Shown here piece after piece: positions 18,301-63,550 of a stretch of 64,000 nucleotides of DNA. Under the pieces are notes generated by a model. The model ran no database searches. It saw only the letters and a list, made by a program, of their open reading frames with translations, and was not told the DNA's origin. The translations under genes and the position numbers were made by a program. Numbering within the stretch: position 1 is the stretch's first letter; every line of letters starts with the position of its first letter. Source of the stretch: Phytoactinopolyspora limicola (GTDB lineage: Bacteria > Actinomycetota > Actinomycetes > Jiangellales > Jiangellaceae); the NCBI RefSeq assembly GCF_011320225.1, contig NZ_JAAOEN010000004.1, positions 248,001 through 312,000 on the forward strand. The letters are read 5' to 3'.

Positions 18301-18967
18301 CACCTGATCTCCGTTTTGACGCCTGATCGTTCTTGTGGCGACGATCAGGTGCGCGGTGGTGGCGACGGCCAGTGTCGACGCGCGGTGGTGGCGTCTGATC
18401 GTCGCCACGATGTGAGACGGCTGGCGATCAGATGCGTGAACCGTCGTATGGCGGCCGGTAGCGCATCTGATCCTTTCGAGGCGGCACCGTGCTATGCGGA
18501 TGCGGCGGGGGCCTGCGAGGCGGATGCGGCGGTCGCCGGCGGGGCGGATGCGGTGGTGGCGTGCGGGGTGCCGGTGCCGCCGACTTCCCCAGGGGGTTGT
18601 CCAGGGTTCACCGGGGTAGTCCGGGGCGTCAGGACCCGGGGTGGTGCGTTGACCGCCTCCACAACTGCGACATTTCACCCACGCCAACAAGCGGTCAGCG
18701 CACCATGCCTCGCCCGGCGGCCCTGCCGTCGTTCACAACGGGCACCCGCGAGCCCAGCACGTCCGGCAAGCGCCATCGCGACGCGATCAGATGCGCTACC
18801 GGACGCCAGGCGACGGTTCACGCATCTGATCGCTAGCTGTCCCGCGTCGCATCCACATCGTGGCGACGATCAGACGCCGCTACCGCACGTCGACACTGGC
18901 CGTCGCCGCCACCGCGCATCTGATCGTCGCCACAAGAACGATCAGGCGTCAAAACGGAGATCAGGTG
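18301..18967. repeat. 667-bp inverted-repeat element with nested hairpins
   Basis: The left arm (18301-18472) and right arm (18785-18967) are reverse complements with few mismatches over the outer 80 bp and recognisable pairing throughout. Each arm contains three smaller hairpins with (C)TGATC ends, for example CCTGATCGT/ACGATCAGG and GATCAGATGCG/CGCATCTGATC. The 312-bp middle is GC-rich with GCGGATGCGG-type repeats and no convincing gene. No transposase is inside and no clear target duplication was seen. It may be a MITE-like or decayed mobile element, or a structure-forming locus. Confidence 0.7.
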
Positions 18968-40019: not shown

Positions 40020-41486
40020 TCAACGCAGCTGACGGGCGGTGAGGTCCGCGCCGGCGCTAGCGGCGACGACGGCCGGAACCACGTCACCGACGGCCGGAAC
40101 CGCCGACCATCGAGCCTCATCGATGCCGTCCGGTCCGAGCAGTTCGGTGGTCCCGTCGACGTCGGGCCCCTGATGGGCGGCCCGGCCCTCGATCCGGCCG
40201 TCGGTGACCGACTCCACCATCACCTCGACCTGCTCACCGATCCGGTCTTCGGCACGCTGCGTCACGAGATCGTCGACGAGTGCGCTGATGTGCTCGACAC
40301 GCTGGGCGATCTCGTCGTCGTCGAGCTTTCCGTCCAGTTTGACCGCCTCGGTGCCGTCCTCGTCGGAGTATCCGAACACGCCCACAACGTCCAACCGGGC
40401 GCGCGAGAGGAAGTCGTCGAGCTCGGCGACGTCGTCGTCGGTCTCGCCAGGAAACCCGACGATGACGTTGGAACGGATACCCGCGGTGGGGACCTGCTGG
40501 CGGATCGATTCGATCAGCTCCAGGAACGGTTCGGTAGACCCGAACCGGCGCATCCGCCGCAACACCGGGGCACTGGCATGCTGGAACGACAGGTCGAAGT
40601 ACGGCACCACACCCGGCGTCGACGTCATCGCTTCCACCAGCGACGGGCGCATCTCCGCCGGCTGGAGGTACGACACCCGCACCCACTCGATGCCGTCGAC
40701 GGCGGCCAAGTCGGGCAGCAGAGACTCGAGCAGCCGGATGTCGCCGAGGTCCTTGCCATACGACGTGGAGTTCTCGCTGACCAGGAACAACTCCCGACTC
40801 CCCTGCTCGGCCAGCCACCGGGCCTCGGCGAGGATGTCAGCTGGACGACGGGACAGGAACGAGCCACGGAACATCGGTATCGCGCAGAACGAACACACCC
40901 GGTCACAGCCACTGGCGAGCTTCAGCGGCGCCGTGGGACCACCGTCCAGTCGCCTCCGGACCGTTCTGGGCCCGGAGACCGGCGCCAACCCAGCGGGGAG
41001 GTCGGGCGCCGACGGAACAACCGTGTTGTGCCCCGGAACCGCCCCGGCGGCGTCCTGGCGCTCGACCGGAGCCACCGGCAACAGCTTGCGGCGGTCTCTG
41101 GGGGCATGCGGCACATGTGTGGTCCCGCCGAGAATGCCACGCAGCCGCTCGCCGATGTCGGTGTAGTGGTCGAAGCCGAGGACGGCGTCGGCTTCGGGGA
41201 GGGAATCGGCTAGTTCCTTGCCGTAACGTTCGGCCATACACCCGACCGCGACGACGGCCTTGGTGGTGCCGTCGTCCTTGAGGTCGGCCGCGGCCAACAG
41301 CGAGTCGACCGAATCCTTCTTGGCCTGCTCGATGAAGCCACAGGTGTTGACCAGGACGGTTTCTGCCTCGGCGGGGTCGTCGACGAGTTGAAAACCCTCA
41401 GCGTCGAGGCGCCCCGCGAGTTCTTCGGAGTCGACCTCGTTACGAGTGCAGCCCAGCGTGACGATTGCGACGGAGTGTTCGCTCAT
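40020..41486 (-). CDS. rimO: Ribosomal protein S12 methylthiotransferase
   Basis: 488 residues, as in streptomycetes. Radical-SAM enzyme that methylthiolates an Asp of S12. N-terminal [20 protein letters not shown] and [16 protein letters not shown] hold the first Fe-S cluster; [18 protein letters not shown] (CxxxCxxC) holds the SAM cluster; FPGETDDDV and a TRAM domain follow. An insertion of about 60 residues after [10 protein letters not shown] is usual in actinobacteria. ATG at 41484-41486; an upstream in-frame extension runs into the 68-bp repeat and is not used. Confidence 0.94.
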
Positions 41487-41528
41487 GAGAGTCACCAGGT
41501 TACCGGGATGAGGCTCGATGGGATTAAC

Positions 41529-41596
41529 CCTGGTGCGCTGAGCGCTCGCCCCATCCACCCAAATAACGGTTTCCAACGAGCGTTCACCGCACCAGG
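41529..41596 (+). repeat. 68-bp hairpin repeat, copy 1
   Basis: CCTGGTGCGCTGAGCGCTCG pairs with the reverse complement at the other end (2 mismatches in 20 bp), around a 28-bp middle ending ACGGTTTCCAA. Same length and orientation as copies 2 and 3. Its right arm contains the last codons and TGA stop of the AbiEi-like gene, so that gene's C terminus (GLVR) comes from the repeat. Confidence 0.85.
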
Positions 41597-42561
41597 CCAG
41601 AACGATCGAACGCGACGGACGGCACGCCGAACATCTTCGACGCGATCTTCGACTGCCGAACGATACGGTCCAGCACGGTCCGCGGCTGGTACATCATCTC
41701 GGCCGGCGTCCACCGCACGACGACGAACCCGGCCTCCTCGATGCGCATCTGCCGCTTCTTCTCCTCGACCAGTACTCGGTCCCGCGGCCCGTACAACGAC
41801 TCACCGTACTTGACGAACCCGTCGACCTCACCGACCAGCCGGTGGCGCCGCCAGAGGAAGTCGGACCGGACACCGCCCCAGCCGTCGCCGATCACCCACG
41901 CGTTGCATTCGGGAAGCGGGAAACCGAGCTCGACGAAGACCGCGAAAGAGGCGGACTCGCCAGGCGACTCCCGCAGTCCAGACGCGTGTTCGGTCACCAG
42001 ATGAACCTGCCGTGTGTTCGACCAGCCGGTCATCCTGTCTCCGACCCTGACCAGCTCATCCGAGTCGATGGCCTGACGGCGCAGTCCGGCGTCGGCAACG
42101 ACCAGCCCGGCGGCAAACCCCTGATTGCGGGCGATATCCAGCGATGTTCGTGCCGGCGATGCGCAGGGCACGTTGCGTGCCACCACCATTTCACCTTCGC
42201 GCAGCCCGCTCGCGGTACGCACTCGGAGGCCGGGGTAGGAACGCTGGCCACGTGCCCGCGGGATCGCGGACAGCTCAGCCACGTCCGGTTGGCCTTTCGG
42301 CACCGGCAGGTCGTTCAGCAAGGCCGCCGAGTAGCCGCTGGCCCAGCCACGCTTGCCAATGGCGAGCCAAGCGGCATAGACCTCAATGGCGTGCCGGTCA
42401 GCCGGCGTGGTCGCGCTCTTCTCCCACATGGTCCGATCGCAGTAGACACCGCGGCGAACCCGCACGATGGCGCCGGTCCGGTAGGCATGCTCGATGGCGG
42501 CTTTGGACAGTCCGTTTGCGATCAGGTCCGCGACCTTGCCGACCCCGGCAATACCTATCAT
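41584..42561 (-). CDS. AbiEi-like protein with C-terminal DUF559/Vsr-type nuclease-like domain
   Basis: 325 residues. N-terminal winged helix ([23 protein letters not shown]) typical of AbiEi antitoxins and of a large actinobacterial family; C-terminal [31 protein letters not shown] resembles the Vsr/DUF559 endonuclease-like fold, with Glu, Asp and Lys in place. No toxin partner (AbiEii) is next to it, so a stand-alone role is likely. ATG at 42559-42561 follows GGAAGG; an earlier in-frame start exists. Flanked by copies 1 and 2 of the 68-bp repeat. Confidence 0.72.
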
Positions 42562-42665
42562 GCCCGCCGATCCTTCCCGGCAGAGCTCGACACCGCAAAT
42601 GGCTATCCACAAGTTATCCACAGGAGCGCCGCGGCCAACTCCGCCGTCAGTGGGCAGGTGGCCAG

Positions 42666-42733
42666 CCTGGTGCGCTGAGCGCTCGCCGCATCCACGCAGA
42701 GAGCGGTTTCCAACGAGCGCTCACCGCACCAGG
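42666..42733 (+). repeat. 68-bp hairpin repeat, copy 2
   Basis: Best preserved copy: 20-bp arms differ at one position. Lies between the start of the AbiEi-like gene and the end of the unknown gene at 42749. Confidence 0.85.
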
Positions 42734-42748
42734 CACCAGACGTCGACG

Positions 42749-43357
42749 TCACGAGCCGTCGCGCTGGCCTACCGCGTCCAAGAGATCGAAATAGCCGTCG
42801 ACCGCATTCCAGAGATGGTTCTCCGGATAGATGCCGTACCCCTTGTGCTGGGAACGCCATCCACGTTTCCAGTACTCATCACGCACGTGCCGGAGGTAGA
42901 CCCGGCTAGCATCAAGTTCCAACGCAAGCTGAGCCGCTTCCTCCTCCGGCGACGGCGCAGGCAACCGGTAAGACTCGGCGTCACCAGCCGACAATGCCAC
43001 CAGCGCTTCGGTCTCCGTCCCGTCCAGCGACCAAAACTTCAGTGGACGTCTGATGTGCTGATTCCACACCGGCCAAGCCGACGGCCTGAGCCGATATGAC
43101 ACCGGAGTCCGATCCAGCCGAAGCTGGTACTCAAGCCACGACGTGTGCTCCGGCGGGTATGTCCCCCACACCAGCTCGCTGGCCGGCACATCGAGCACGA
43201 ATACGACGTGCACGAACTCGATCTCCGGCACCGCTTCGAGAACATCACCGGTTGCATAGGCGGCGATCAGCACCGGCTTCTCGACCGGAAACCTGCGGAC
43301 CTGCTCGCAACCCTCGGCGAGCGTATACAGCCGGCGGATCGCTGTCGCACGACGCAT
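42749..43357 (-). CDS. Conserved-looking protein of unknown function
   Basis: 202 residues, soluble, no signal peptide. Tryptophan- and tyrosine-rich (ELVWGTYPPEHTSWLEYQL, PSAWPVWNQHIRRPLKFWSL, DEYWKRGWRSQHKGYGIYPENHLWNA). The N terminus MRRATAIRRLYTLAEGC and the C-terminal LWNAVDGYFDLLDA suggest a compact fold. I do not recognise the family. Framed by repeat copies 2 and 3, between the AbiEi-like gene and ftsK, so probably an acquired pair of genes. Confidence 0.7.
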   Translation of the reverse strand: MRRATAIRRLYTLAEGCEQVRRFPVEKPVLIAAYATGDVLEAVPEIEFVHVVFVLDVPASELVWGTYPPEHTSWLEYQLRLDRTPVSYRLRPSAWPVWNQHIRRPLKFWSLDGTETEALVALSAGDAESYRLPAPSPEEEAAQLALELDASRVYLRHVRDEYWKRGWRSQHKGYGIYPENHLWNAVDGYFDLLDAVGQRDGS

Positions 43358-43395
43358 ACCGGCATTGTGCCCGACATTCGGTGGTCCGTCATTGG

Positions 43396-43463
43396 CCAGG
43401 TGCGCTGAACGCTTGCCGCCCCCACCCAGATAACGGTTTCCAACGAGCCCTCACCGCACCAGG
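43396..43463 (+). repeat. 68-bp hairpin repeat, copy 3
   Basis: Same unit as copies 1 and 2, with more arm mismatches (first arm CCAGGTGCGCTGAACGCTTG) but an identical ACGGTTTCCAACGAG segment shared with copy 1. It lies between the unknown gene's start and the ftsK stop. Confidence 0.85.
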
Positions 43464-43487
43464 CACCAATGGTTGGCGCGACAGGCC

Positions 43488-45998
43488 CTAGTCGCCGCGC
43501 AGCGTCGACAGCACCTCGGCGAGGTCGTCCGGCTTCACCAGCACGTCGCGGGCCTTGGAGCCCTCCGACGGACCAACGATGCCCCGGCTCTCCATGAGAT
43601 CCATCAGCCGGCCCGCCTTCGCGAACCCGACCCGCAGCTTGCGTTGCAGCATCGACGTGGATCCGAACTGGGTGTTCACGACCAGCTCAGCCGCCTGACA
43701 GAGCAGATCGAGGTCGTCGCCGATGTCTTCGTCGATCTCCCGCTTGGCCGTGGTCGGCGCGGCGACGTCGTCGCGATACGACGCGGCCAACTGCTCCTTG
43801 CAGTGGTCCACCACGGACGCGATCTCGGACTCGGTGACCCACGCACCCTGCACGCGGATCGGTTTGCTGGCTCCCATGGGGAGAAAGAGCCCGTCGCCCT
43901 GACCCACCAACTTCTCCGCACCCGGCTGATCCAGAATCACTCGGGAGTCGGCCAGCGACGACGTGGCGAATGCCAGCCGCGACGGCACGTTGGCCTTGAT
44001 CAGGCCGGTGACGACGTCGACCGACGGGCGCTGGGTGGCCAGAACCAAATGAATGCCGGCGGCCCGGGCCAGCTGGGTGATCCGCACCACCGCGTCTTCC
44101 ACGTCGCGGGGGGCCACCATCATCAGATCGGCCAGCTCGTCGACGATCACCAGCAGGTACGGGTACGGCGTGAGGACCCGTTCGCTCCCTTCGGGCACCT
44201 TCACCTTGCCCGCACGGACCGCCTTGTTGAAGTCGTCGACGTGCCGGAAGCCGAACTCGGCAAGATCGTCGTAGCGCATGTCCATCTCGCGTACGACCCA
44301 TTGCAGCGCCTCGGCGGCTTTCTTCGGATTGGTGATGATCTGGGTGATCAGGTGCGGTACACCCTCGTAGGCGGACAGCTCCACGCGCTTCGGGTCCACC
44401 ATGATCAGGCGTACCTCGTCGGGTGTGGCCCGCATGAGGACCGAGGTGATCATCGAGTTGATGAAGCTCGACTTACCCGACCCGGTGGCGCCGGCCACCA
44501 GCAGGTGCGGCATCTTGGCGAGGTTGGCGACGACGAACCCGCCCTCGACGTCTTTGCCCAGGCCGGCGATCATCGGGTGGTGATCCTTACGCGCCACCGA
44601 CGATCGCAGCACGTCGCCAAGGCTGACGATCTCCTTGTCGGTGTTCGGGATCTCGATGCCGATCGCGGACTTCCCCGGGATCGGCGACAGGATCCGGACG
44701 TCGGCGCTGGCCACCGCGTAGGAAATGTTCTTGGTCAGCGCGGTGACCTTCTCCACCTTCACGGCTGAGCCGAGCTCCACCTCGTAGCGGGTGACCGTCG
44801 GCCCACGCGTGTAAGTGGTGACCTCGGCGTCGATGTTGAACTGCTCGAACACCCCGCGCAGCGCCTCGACAACCGCGTCCGACGCCGGCGTGCGTGCTTT
44901 GTGGGCGCTGCCCTGGCGTAGAACGTCGCTGGACGGCAACGTGTAGGTGATGTCCCCCGAGAGGGCGAGTTGCTCCACGCGCTGAGGCACCGGAGTGTGA
45001 GGAGGTGGCTCTTCCACCACCGTCGCCGCGGTGTCCTCGGGCGCCGGATCCGGTGGGGGCGGCGGCGCCACCTGAGTAGGAGTCTCGGCCTCCGGCTTCT
45101 TCTTCGGCTTCTCGCGAAGCACCGGTGAGTCGTACGGCTCCTCGTCGGTGGGAACGAGGGCGGCTTCTTTCTGTTTACGCCGCCGTGGGCTGATCGGCCG
45201 CTCTTCCTCTCCGTCGAGACGACGGAACCCGAGGACGACGGAGATCCGGTCCCAGGCGACGGCAGCGTAGCTGGGAACCTCGTAGAGCGGGATGCCGGTG
45301 ACGACGAGGATCCCGAAGAGGGTCAGGAGAATCAGCAAGGGGACCGCGACCCAGGACGTGAGTAGGTCGGCCAGCACCGTCGACGCGACGTACCCGACCG
45401 CACCGCCGGAGCGTTGCAACGCCTCCGCACCGTCGACCGGTCGAGGCATTCCGCCGGCCAGGTGGGCCAGGCCGAGCGCACCGAGCGACAAACACGTCCA
45501 CCCCACCACCTGTTGGCTGGTCGGCCGGTTGACGTCGGGCCGGCGCATCGTCCGCCACGCGGCCATGACCAGCAATACGGGCACCACATACCCGGCGGTG
45601 CCGACCGCGCCGGCCACGGCATCGTGGATGACGCCGGCCACAGCTCCGTCGACCGACCACCACATCACCGCGGCGACAACCACCCCGACGCCGATGAGCG
45701 CGAGACCCGCGCCGTCGCGGCGCTGCTCGGTGGGGATGTCTTTGGCGGTGGACCCCAGCCGCCGCGCCACCCCACCGATGAGGTGGGCCAGGCCCATCCA
45801 GATGGCTTGGATGCCCCGCCCGATGGCGCGGAACAGCCGGATGCCGGCACCGGGCTGGGCCGGCCGGCGAGCCGGTGGACGGCGGGCCGGCGGCCGTCGC
45901 GAGGACGTGCCGCGCGATGCGGGGCGTTTCCGCGCCGCCCCGGCATTACCTCGCGATCGCGCGGACGCGGCGGGTGCGGTGGTGGTACGGGTCGCCAT
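43488..45998 (-). CDS. ftsK: DNA translocase FtsK/SpoIIIE
   Basis: 836 residues. Pumps chromosomal DNA through the septum. Four helices in the N-terminal 250 residues, a Pro-rich linker (about 275-330), the motor with Walker [13 protein letters not shown] and Walker [14 protein letters not shown], and the winged gamma domain ([20 protein letters not shown]) that reads polar sequence motifs. The ATG lies 7 nt after TAGCCT, suggesting a leaderless mRNA. Confidence 0.95.
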
Positions 45999-61143: not shown

Positions 61144-62504
<1,361 letters not shown>

Positions 62505-63067: not shown

Positions 63068-63484
63068 GTGCGGCGCACCGTCGGTGAGTGCGACGATGAC
63101 CTCGTGCATATTCGGCTTCCGCGCTGGCTGGCCCGGTTCAACCGGATCGGCACCAATCGGGTGATGGGCCTCTGGGCACCGTATCTGCCGCCGTGGGCCG
63201 TCGTCGGGCACCAAGGCCGCCGCTCCGGTGTGGCCTACCGCACGGTGGTGTTCGTCTTCGTCCGCCGGCGCACCGCTGTCATCGCCCTCACCTACGGCCC
63301 CACCGACTGGCAGCACAACCTCGAAGCCGCCGGTGGCGGCACTCTCACTCGGCTCGGCCGCACCTGGCAGCTCACCAACCCTCGGGTGGTGAACGGCGTC
63401 GACGCCGCGCAGCTGCCCGCCGGTACCCGGTGGACGGCGCGGGTGTTCGGTTCGGCGCTGGTCGCCACCCTCACCGCCCCATGA
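63068..63484 (+). CDS. Nitroreductase-family deazaflavin (F420)-dependent oxidoreductase
   Basis: 138 residues. IRLPRWLARFNRIGTNRV, VVGHQGRRSGVAYRTVVFVF and TYGPTDWQHNLEAAGGG fit the Ddn-like split-barrel family that uses F420H2. GTG at 63068 has GGAG 5-6 nt upstream; GTG at 63104 is an alternative closer to the conserved part. Its last seven codons lie inside the 88-bp palindrome. Confidence 0.85.
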   Translation: MRRTVGECDDDLVHIRLPRWLARFNRIGTNRVMGLWAPYLPPWAVVGHQGRRSGVAYRTVVFVFVRRRTAVIALTYGPTDWQHNLEAAGGGTLTRLGRTWQLTNPRVVNGVDAAQLPAGTRWTARVFGSALVATLTAP

Positions 63485-63550
63485 TCATGAACACTTTGCC
63501 GTGTCATGACACGGCAAAGTGTTCATGATCATGGGGCGGTGAGGGTGGCG
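63463..63550. repeat. 88-bp perfect loopless palindrome between convergent genes
   Basis: All 44 base pairs about the centre 63506/63507 (TCA/TGA) match. Half-site includes CACCGCCCCATGATCATGAA and CACTTTGCCGTG. It spans the end of the F420-type gene and its downstream gap; the M16 peptidase gene ends at 63576 on the other strand. Likely a bidirectional terminator, but its perfection exceeds what that needs. Confidence 0.9.

Follow-up and report, generated by a model that had tools for sequence, protein, structure and literature searches.

Fixed-length hairpins paired with AbiEi-DUF559 nuclease genes in Phytoactinopolyspora limicola and other actinobacteria

The window analyzed here is a 64,000-nucleotide stretch of the Phytoactinopolyspora limicola genome (contig NZ_JAAOEN010000004.1, positions 248,001 to 312,000), and between its rimO and ftsK genes lie three hairpins that frame two genes, one encoding a protein with AbiEi-like and Vsr-like nuclease parts and the other a DUF7711 protein. 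The original prediction, made from the sequence, placed three 68-bp copies of equal length and one orientation at 41529, 42666 and 43396, framing an AbiEi/Vsr-like gene and a second gene between rimO and ftsK; all of this is borne out, the second gene being DUF7711, and Pfam names the gene neighbors as rimO-type radical SAM, DUF7711 and FtsK. The features of the locus are as follows.

41529..41596, minus strand: hairpin copy 1 (64-bp core 41531-41594), downstream of the AbiEi-nuclease gene
41584..42621, minus strand: gene for a 345-amino-acid protein with an AbiEi-like winged helix and a DUF559/EDxHD (Vsr-fold) nuclease, the candidate cognate enzyme
42666..42733, minus strand: hairpin copy 2 (core 42668-42731), between DUF7711 and the AbiEi-nuclease gene
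42749..43357, minus strand: DUF7711 gene, a probable passenger
43396..43463, minus strand: hairpin copy 3 (core 43398-43461), between ftsK and DUF7711

Copies 1, 2 and 3 stand at the 3' ends of the AbiEi/Vsr-like, DUF7711 and ftsK genes, all on the minus strand, with copy 1 overlapping the 3' end of the nuclease gene by 13 bp, and each 68-bp unit consists of a 64-bp family core and two bases per side. Inverted ends of 20 bp had been described for all three; these are present in copy 1 (20 nt at 90% complementary) and copy 2 (21 nt at 95%), but copy 3 is weaker and an inverted-repeat search returned no separate pair for it. The shared part, 15-nt ACGGTTTCCAACGAG, is exact in copies 1 and 3, but copy 2 carries GCGGTTTCCAACGAG instead. 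Folded as RNA on the gene strand, copies 1, 2 and 3 have z scores of -6.4, -7.7 and -3.1, with none of 200 shuffles as stable in each case. No terminator-like site (a GC hairpin followed by a T run) occurs in 41000-44000, plasmid records searched with the second 68-mer gave no match, and Rfam returned only sub-threshold matches to microRNA models, six of the seven on hairpin 2.

The 64-bp core is dispersed well beyond this locus. BLAST recovered one further copy in the same genome, and a search of 40 genomes for both family ends, with total lengths of 49 to 79 bp allowed, found elements in four of them and none in any of the 40 with a reversed-pattern control. The 48 distinct places in that list are 64 bp (42) or 65 bp (6) long despite widely differing interiors, and 40 copies (two duplicates and the six 65-mers left out) align without gaps and end in TGGTGCG..CGCACCA; the outer seven bases are invariant by construction, having been used to select the copies, whereas no such selection explains the fixed length. 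In 1.252 Mb of the P. limicola genome all 18 copies are 64 bp, although 61 to 67 bp was allowed, and reversed arms gave none. A covariance model built from the 40 aligned copies (E <= 0.01, with the best 150 candidates per genome scored, so that counts are minima) matches at least 41 places in P. limicola (at least 67 matches with both strands counted; places counted by hand) and at least 7 of 22 family genomes, P. limicola included, these being all five in the genus plus G009 and G005 (G000 denotes P. limicola and the other G numbers compared genomes). We checked whether the unit occurs only here while relatives carry the two genes without repeats, and this is not what is found.

The stem register on A2 scores better than slid versions, and 27 cells are changed on both sides compared to 19.7 in shuffles, with 9 of 500 shuffles as high. 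Such covariation does not decide whether the stem is selected as RNA or single-stranded DNA, because a duplex site with two symmetric half-sites would look alike. Core position 8 is mismatched (neither Watson-Crick nor G-U) in 25 of 42 copies; we considered this as a recognition bulge, but it is not general because the hairpins of two other families in the same genome (C37 and C8, below) are near-perfect palindromes.

When loci collected by protein similarity were scanned de novo, hairpins turned out to lie close to the nuclease genes, with 32 in 20.0 kb near the gene versus 46 in 189.5 kb elsewhere (25 of 26 loci, L130 left out). In a stricter test we scored a gene as paired if homologous hairpins lie on both sides of it within 350 bp. 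It was applied to 50 of our 83 protein-search matches, first the 30 that had loci and then 20 others picked mainly within the genus, along with 15 of 26 further loci, nine duplicates and two fragments having been dropped. Of the AbiEi-nuclease genes, 18/45 and 10/20, together 28 of 65, pass this two-sided test. Four of 119 control genes also pass, but three of these are AbiEi genes, and their removal leaves 1 of 116, the DUF7711 gene of the window itself (28/65 versus 1/116, Fisher p 7e-14, with the caveat that related loci are not independent). The window gene and its orthologues in G002, G003, G004 and G018 are flanked on both sides, and the four AbiEi-nuclease genes found by protein search in P. 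limicola all pass, with distinct hairpins of 64, 58, 67 and ~70 bp. Pairing on both sides thus extends across paralogues, species and genera, with loci in Phytoactinopolyspora, Jiangella, Aldersonia, metagenome-assembled genomes (MAGs) of Williamsia and Rhodococcus, and other actinobacterial MAGs.

Some loci depart from the simple arrangement. The first flank scan missed two of them: the G009 pair, detected only with longer hairpins allowed, and the G005 gene, whose tandem half-sites on both sides fail the two-sided test too. Half-sites stand in tandem, at ~21-22 bp, upstream and downstream of the nuclease gene in P. halophila (L113, 3749-3836 and 5182-5260), and a tandem run occurs at G013:C246:5710-5870; the sequences of L113 and G013 suggest that single arms may be recognized and multiplied.

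A blind scan of the 915 genes called in 1.252 Mb of the P. limicola genome points the same way. Eight genes pass the two-sided test, and Pfam identifies two of the five proteins submitted as AbiEi_4, both absent from our earlier protein-search list. With these two added to the AbiEi set, a model made from it detects three AbiEi-type genes in the 1.252 Mb, all three flanked. Two of the remaining five genes, DUF7711 and one for a fumarase-type lyase, are neighbors that have a hairpin in common with an AbiEi gene. The hairpins of the two new AbiEi_4 genes are themselves repeated, with 18 matches for TTTGACTACCGGATCC and 52 for ATCGTTGCCG (both strands) and none in a reversed control (one strand).

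The protein encoded between hairpin copies 1 and 2 has an AbiEi-like N-terminal part (PADLOC AbiEi, 1.1e-10, for a 334-amino-acid version), and its only Pfam matches at E <= 1 are DUF559 (E 0.0015), AbiEi_4 (E 0.0017), both short of their cut-offs, and MTES_1575, with no Y1 (HuH) transposase among them; no NCBIfam model matched at E <= 1. In an AlphaFold2 model of the 345-residue protein, made from ten sequences, the predicted C-terminal half has an EDxHD/Vsr-type nuclease fold that is closest to a homing endonuclease catalytic domain. Residues 219-329, where 10-residue blocks have predicted local distance difference test (pLDDT) scores of 45-94, align by VIA-align with the catalytic domain of I-Bth0305I (3r3p_A) at Z 10.5 over 97/97 residues with a root-mean-square deviation of 2.9, followed by the putative endonuclease-like protein 3hrl (Z 10.3) and Vsr (1cw0, Z 8.6). 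Foldseek places AbiEi (6y8q) first with E 0.019 and I-Bth0305I fifth with E 0.16 and probability 0.98. There is no transposase among the 50 matches listed in each PDB structure comparison, which is not proof of absence. Residues E218, E222, D254, E265, D267 and K271 are invariant in 16 diverse members, one of them a fragment. No AbiEii nucleotidyltransferase toxin is among the Pfam names of the neighbors, and no intron or intein was seen around the gene. The nuclease protein tree has few supported forks (2 of 11 starred) and is kept out of any claim of co-evolution.

The hairpins of other paralogues are also dispersed. For the C37 paralogue, 15 fetched P. limicola loci contain 16 hairpin elements, including the two on either side of the gene; two pairs of these loci have flanks in common and may represent duplicates. 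The hairpin of the C8 paralogue occurs 17 times in the 1.252 Mb, with none in the control. For other genomes, among them the Jiangella genomes G012, G013 and G015, we give arm matches against a reversed control. Arms of TTGGCACGCCGG number 45 vs 2 in G013, 12 vs 3 in G010, 7 vs 6 in G018, 4 vs 2 in G012, 2 vs 4 in G021 and 0 vs 3 in G015; those of CTTGGCAAGGCTG 19 vs 1 in G015, 15 vs 0 in G012, 5 vs 0 in G010, 4 vs 0 in G019, 3 vs 0 in G021 and 1 vs 2 in G018; and those of CCTGCANNNNGCGTCA 15 vs 0 in G040 and 14 vs 0 in G043 (both actinobacterial MAGs), 6 vs 0 in G041, 6 vs 2 in G042, 3 vs 0 in G045 and 0 vs 1 in G044. Repeat abundance matches the presence of the gene in G000, G013 and G015 and for one of two genes in G012, whereas G018 has a gene without dispersal; dispersal is clear in several genomes and absent in others.

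The copies are placed almost entirely between genes and mostly at gene 3' ends. By our own crude gene calls in 1.25 Mb, all but one of 37 copies from three families (18, 17 and 2) fall between genes, with convergent gaps enriched (17 copies, 22% expected, p 6e-4) and divergent gaps depleted (2/36, 29% expected, p 6e-4). Of 18 copies, 16 have no target-site duplication and the other two have 2 and 4 bp. In subfamily A of the window's family (P. limicola copies, e.g. L026, L028, L029, L035, L036), 7 of the 13 copies examined have the 3' end of a tRNA gene 28-135 bp away, six of them in the same sense, and several share flanks such as GGATCTCAGCGGGG. In kind, then, the proposal of a family of the repetitive extragenic palindrome (REP) or miniature inverted-repeat transposable element (MITE) type was right: the copies are scattered palindromes that lie mostly in intergenic gaps and for the most part lack target duplications.

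Comparison of the locus among relatives shows that the ends of the hairpins differ with the gene lineage. The nuclease gene lies between rimO and ftsK with one hairpin per side in G002 and G004, and in G003 ftsK is followed by DUF7711, a hairpin, the nuclease gene and a second hairpin, and rimO lies ~5 kb beyond; DUF7711 is present at this locus in G003 and G004 but not G002. Flanking copies are direct in G000, G002 and G004 and inverted in G003. The ends beside orthologous genes are lineage-specific (TGGTGCG, TGGCACG, TGCACG and TTGGCAAGG): TGGTGCG in G000, G002 and G003; TGGCACG in G004, at the gene (L054, L062) as well as in the two dispersed copies read (L049, L058); TGGCACG in three of four copies read in G009; and TGCACG in G005 copies. 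Three TGGCACG-ended copies are present in P. limicola (two among the 18 in 1.252 Mb), which is what relics would look like. At orthologous junctions of G002 and G004 the asymmetric core points the opposite way relative to the genes, and because of this flip we rejected the idea of an element acting in RNA sense.

Comparison of rimO-ftsK in relatives, which had been proposed as a check, revealed regions lacking the cassette but no clear empty site. None of 12 Jiangella regions fetched has a nuclease or DUF7711 match, and in the 10 with both genes located (the L102 and L105 stretches have no ftsK) the cassette is absent between rimO and ftsK; the G001 stretch ended before ftsK. No empty site with joined flanks was found for the P. 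limicola loci then at hand. The ftsK-DUF7711 junctions of G003 and G004 have no counterpart of copy 3, which is weak evidence that copy 3 may be a recent gain, because these junctions are otherwise unlike too. Among genus members the nuclease is 60-64% identical, rimO segments 76-89% and ftsK 81-86%. At G001:C12:619669-620022 (L077) only the C-terminal part of the nuclease matched, yet it is flanked by a hairpin pair with other ends, GCATGGGTTA, and is possibly a decaying unit.

We favor, with a probability of roughly two in three, an interpretation in which the hairpins are selfish, REP-like repeats that the nuclease encoded between them maintains and propagates. That nuclease and hairpin stand in a cognate relation is highly probable, while nuclease-driven spread of the hairpins is favored with less assurance. 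The AbiEi/Vsr-like gene looks like the partner of the hairpins rather than their cargo, and we propose that each AbiEi-nuclease paralogue has its own hairpin family. Mechanistically, an AbiEi-type DNA-binding part joined in one protein to an EDxHD/Vsr-fold endonuclease would recognize its cognate hairpin by the end box, which here is TGGTGCGBTGA on each arm at a constant spacing of 64 bp, and would cut or nick there, and repair would copy the hairpin, sometimes with the gene or a neighbor such as DUF7711, into other intergenic sites, as well as homogenize existing copies. Binding and cutting of the hairpins by the protein, copying driven by that cutting, and the selfish nature of the system are inferred.

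Two other ideas in the original prediction are partly accommodated. The hairpins had been suggested as sites through which two accessory genes were assembled or moved, and DUF7711 may indeed be a passenger, but the AbiEi/Vsr-like gene is likely the cognate enzyme and not an accessory one. A role as mRNA-stabilizing ends may be a side effect, but it leaves the nuclease pairing, the orientation flips and the rigid length unexplained.

Several observations weigh against the selfish-repeat interpretation. In the two-sided test 37 of 65 AbiEi-nuclease loci have no pair, and 3 of 8 blind-scan genes have no visible link to an AbiEi gene. Dispersal is uneven: the hairpin of a further P. limicola paralogue (C9, F3) has one weak match in 1.252 Mb, the G018 pair is hardly dispersed (7 vs 6), the TTGGCACG-type hairpin of G012 scores 4 vs 2, four of six G041 matches are the gene's own pair, and G010 carries dispersed TTGGCACGCCGG hairpins without a close gene. 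The AlphaFold2 model has a mean pLDDT of 65, no Foldseek match has E 0.001 or better, and a mitoribosomal chain also reaches Z 8.2 in VIA-align. Covariation inside the stem is barely above shuffles (85.0 vs 84.0% of cells paired). DUF7711, at 53-60% identity, changes as fast as the nuclease in the same cassette, so fast change is not special to the nuclease, and flanking sequence is common to subfamilies A and B, which may therefore have spread in part as larger units. Movement itself is not seen, because 16 of 18 copies have no target duplication and there is no strain-level or clear empty site. EDxHD nucleases are not known to join strands, nor to form the covalent DNA intermediate of HuH enzymes, and copying must therefore borrow break repair.

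The closest rival is one in which the hairpins are target sites that something else spread earlier, and a free-standing homing nuclease cuts them, with homology repair inserting the gene or cargo (DUF7711) as a hairpin-gene-hairpin cassette. The fold nearest to the C-terminal half is that of a homing endonuclease, both window genes lie as cassettes between copies, and the 10 Jiangella regions lack the cassette. However, several diverged paralogues each have their own hairpin family, so one independent spreader per paralogue would be needed, and the ends of dispersed copies vary with gene lineage; we regard homing as unlikely, although it uses the same contact between protein and hairpin as the selfish-repeat interpretation and the two cannot be separated here.

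Far less probable is that these are ordinary REP or MITE repeats moved by an unrelated enzyme, such as a Y1 REP-associated tyrosine transposase (RAYT) or an insertion sequence, with AbiEi genes merely sitting in repeat-rich gaps. Dispersed intergenic palindromes are classically REPs moved by RAYTs, according to PMC2817692, and a genome-wide Y1 transposase search was not made here; yet the pairing is gene-specific, two-sided and of a different family per paralogue, such pairs occur at only 1/116 controls and 5/912 other blind-scan genes, and none of the 40 aligned copies, which were selected by their TGGTGCG..CGCACCA ends, has a GTAG or GTGG head. As for the RAYT-like transposase that had been proposed for searching, the gene in the RAYT position is an AbiEi-EDxHD nuclease, no genome-wide RAYT search having been made. 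Equally improbable are regulatory sites without mobility, in which the AbiEi-like part would bind the hairpins, and these would serve its own gene and a regulon as operators or terminators. AbiEi antitoxins do bind inverted repeats at their own promoter, and the copies lie at gene ends, including those of tRNA genes; but divergent gaps, which hold promoters, are avoided, the locus has no terminator-like site, orientation flips at orthologous positions, and the candidate catalytic residues are invariant in the 16 diverse members.

REP palindromes and RAYT transposases are the textbook pairing of a domesticated enzyme with a dispersed repeat. PMC2817692 describes RAYT genes that lie between cognate palindromes and evolve fast, with shared change, several such pairs in one genome and copies dispersed between genes. 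Judged against that paper (Nunvar 2010) and Corneloup 2021 (PMC8266576) on REPtrons, the system described here is similar in that palindromes flank their cognate enzyme gene and are scattered through intergenic sites, a genome holds several such pairs, the repeats track gene lineage, and the gene evolves fast. By the same sources it differs in its enzyme (AbiEi plus EDxHD nuclease rather than a Y1/HuH transposase), in the missing GTAG head, in flanking copies that are inverted only in G003, in hairpins of ~50-70 bp and near-constant length per family rather than 20-40 bp, and in the tens of copies found here rather than the usual >100. REPs without a known transposase do exist, since CGTC-tagged REPs are reported, in the portion of PMC3733652 available, without association to transposase genes.

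The predicted catalytic-domain fold is shared with EDxHD homing endonuclease I-Bth0305I and with Vsr, but these genes have an AbiEi-type part fused, dispersed hairpins associated, and no intron or intein seen. The N-terminal similarity is to the antitoxin AbiEi of the AbiE type IV toxin-antitoxin system (6y8q), but there is no AbiEii toxin gene alongside and a C-terminal nuclease is present. Short inverted-repeat units, and a gene with a downstream hairpin, recall MITEs and integron attC cassettes. Unlike MITEs, however, 16/18 copies have no target duplication; the nuclease gene with its flanking copies is the only candidate for a MITE parent seen, no transposase search of the genome having been made. 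The attC core ends RYYYAAC..GTTRRRY, and we rejected an integron reading because the hairpin ends TGGTGCG..CGCACCA have no attC core motif. No description of AbiEi-DUF559 nuclease-hairpin pairing was found in the open-access literature, although subscription journals were mostly outside this scope and a prior description is possible; one DUF559 paper concerns, in its accessible part, a Caulobacter Vsr-like protein (PMC12907096).

Here an unrelated nuclease fold takes the place of the RAYT, several times per genome and each time with a repeat of its own. If the selfish-repeat interpretation is correct, it would provide a function for AbiEi-DUF559 genes now under a toxin-antitoxin label and an origin for actinobacterial palindromic repeats. 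It would also raise the question of how a nuclease without known strand-transfer activity multiplies a 64-bp hairpin at unchanged length. We consider it an evenly balanced question whether AbiEi-DUF559 genes of several actinobacterial genera are, more broadly, not antitoxins but the enzymes of a separate, transposase-free class of selfish repeats, an independent invention in the REP/RAYT style whose fixed-length hairpin populations, one for each EDxHD/Vsr-fold nuclease, are kept by cut-and-repair copying.

Two further hairpins of note lie elsewhere in the window.

18642..18705, plus strand: a subfamily-B member of the same hairpin family as copies 1 to 3, and the only additional one found in the window
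62435..62502, strand unassigned: perfect hairpin with TTTGACTACCGGATCC, of a different dispersed family

The subfamily-B copy is the middle of a ~500-bp symmetric composite (window 18335-18933) with its own outer hairpins, and the same composite recurs around other B copies. The TTTGACTACCGGATCC family includes AbiEi-gene-flanking copies at G000:C12:12570 and 13704. Another abundant hairpin family, ATCATGAACAC.., is present at window 63469-63544 and at G000:C12:509964-512723, with 36 arm matches in 1.25 Mb and none in the reversed control. A very frequent motif, GCATCTGATCG, occurs 97 times in 1.25 Mb on both strands (G000 C34 and C12), with a reversed control of 0.

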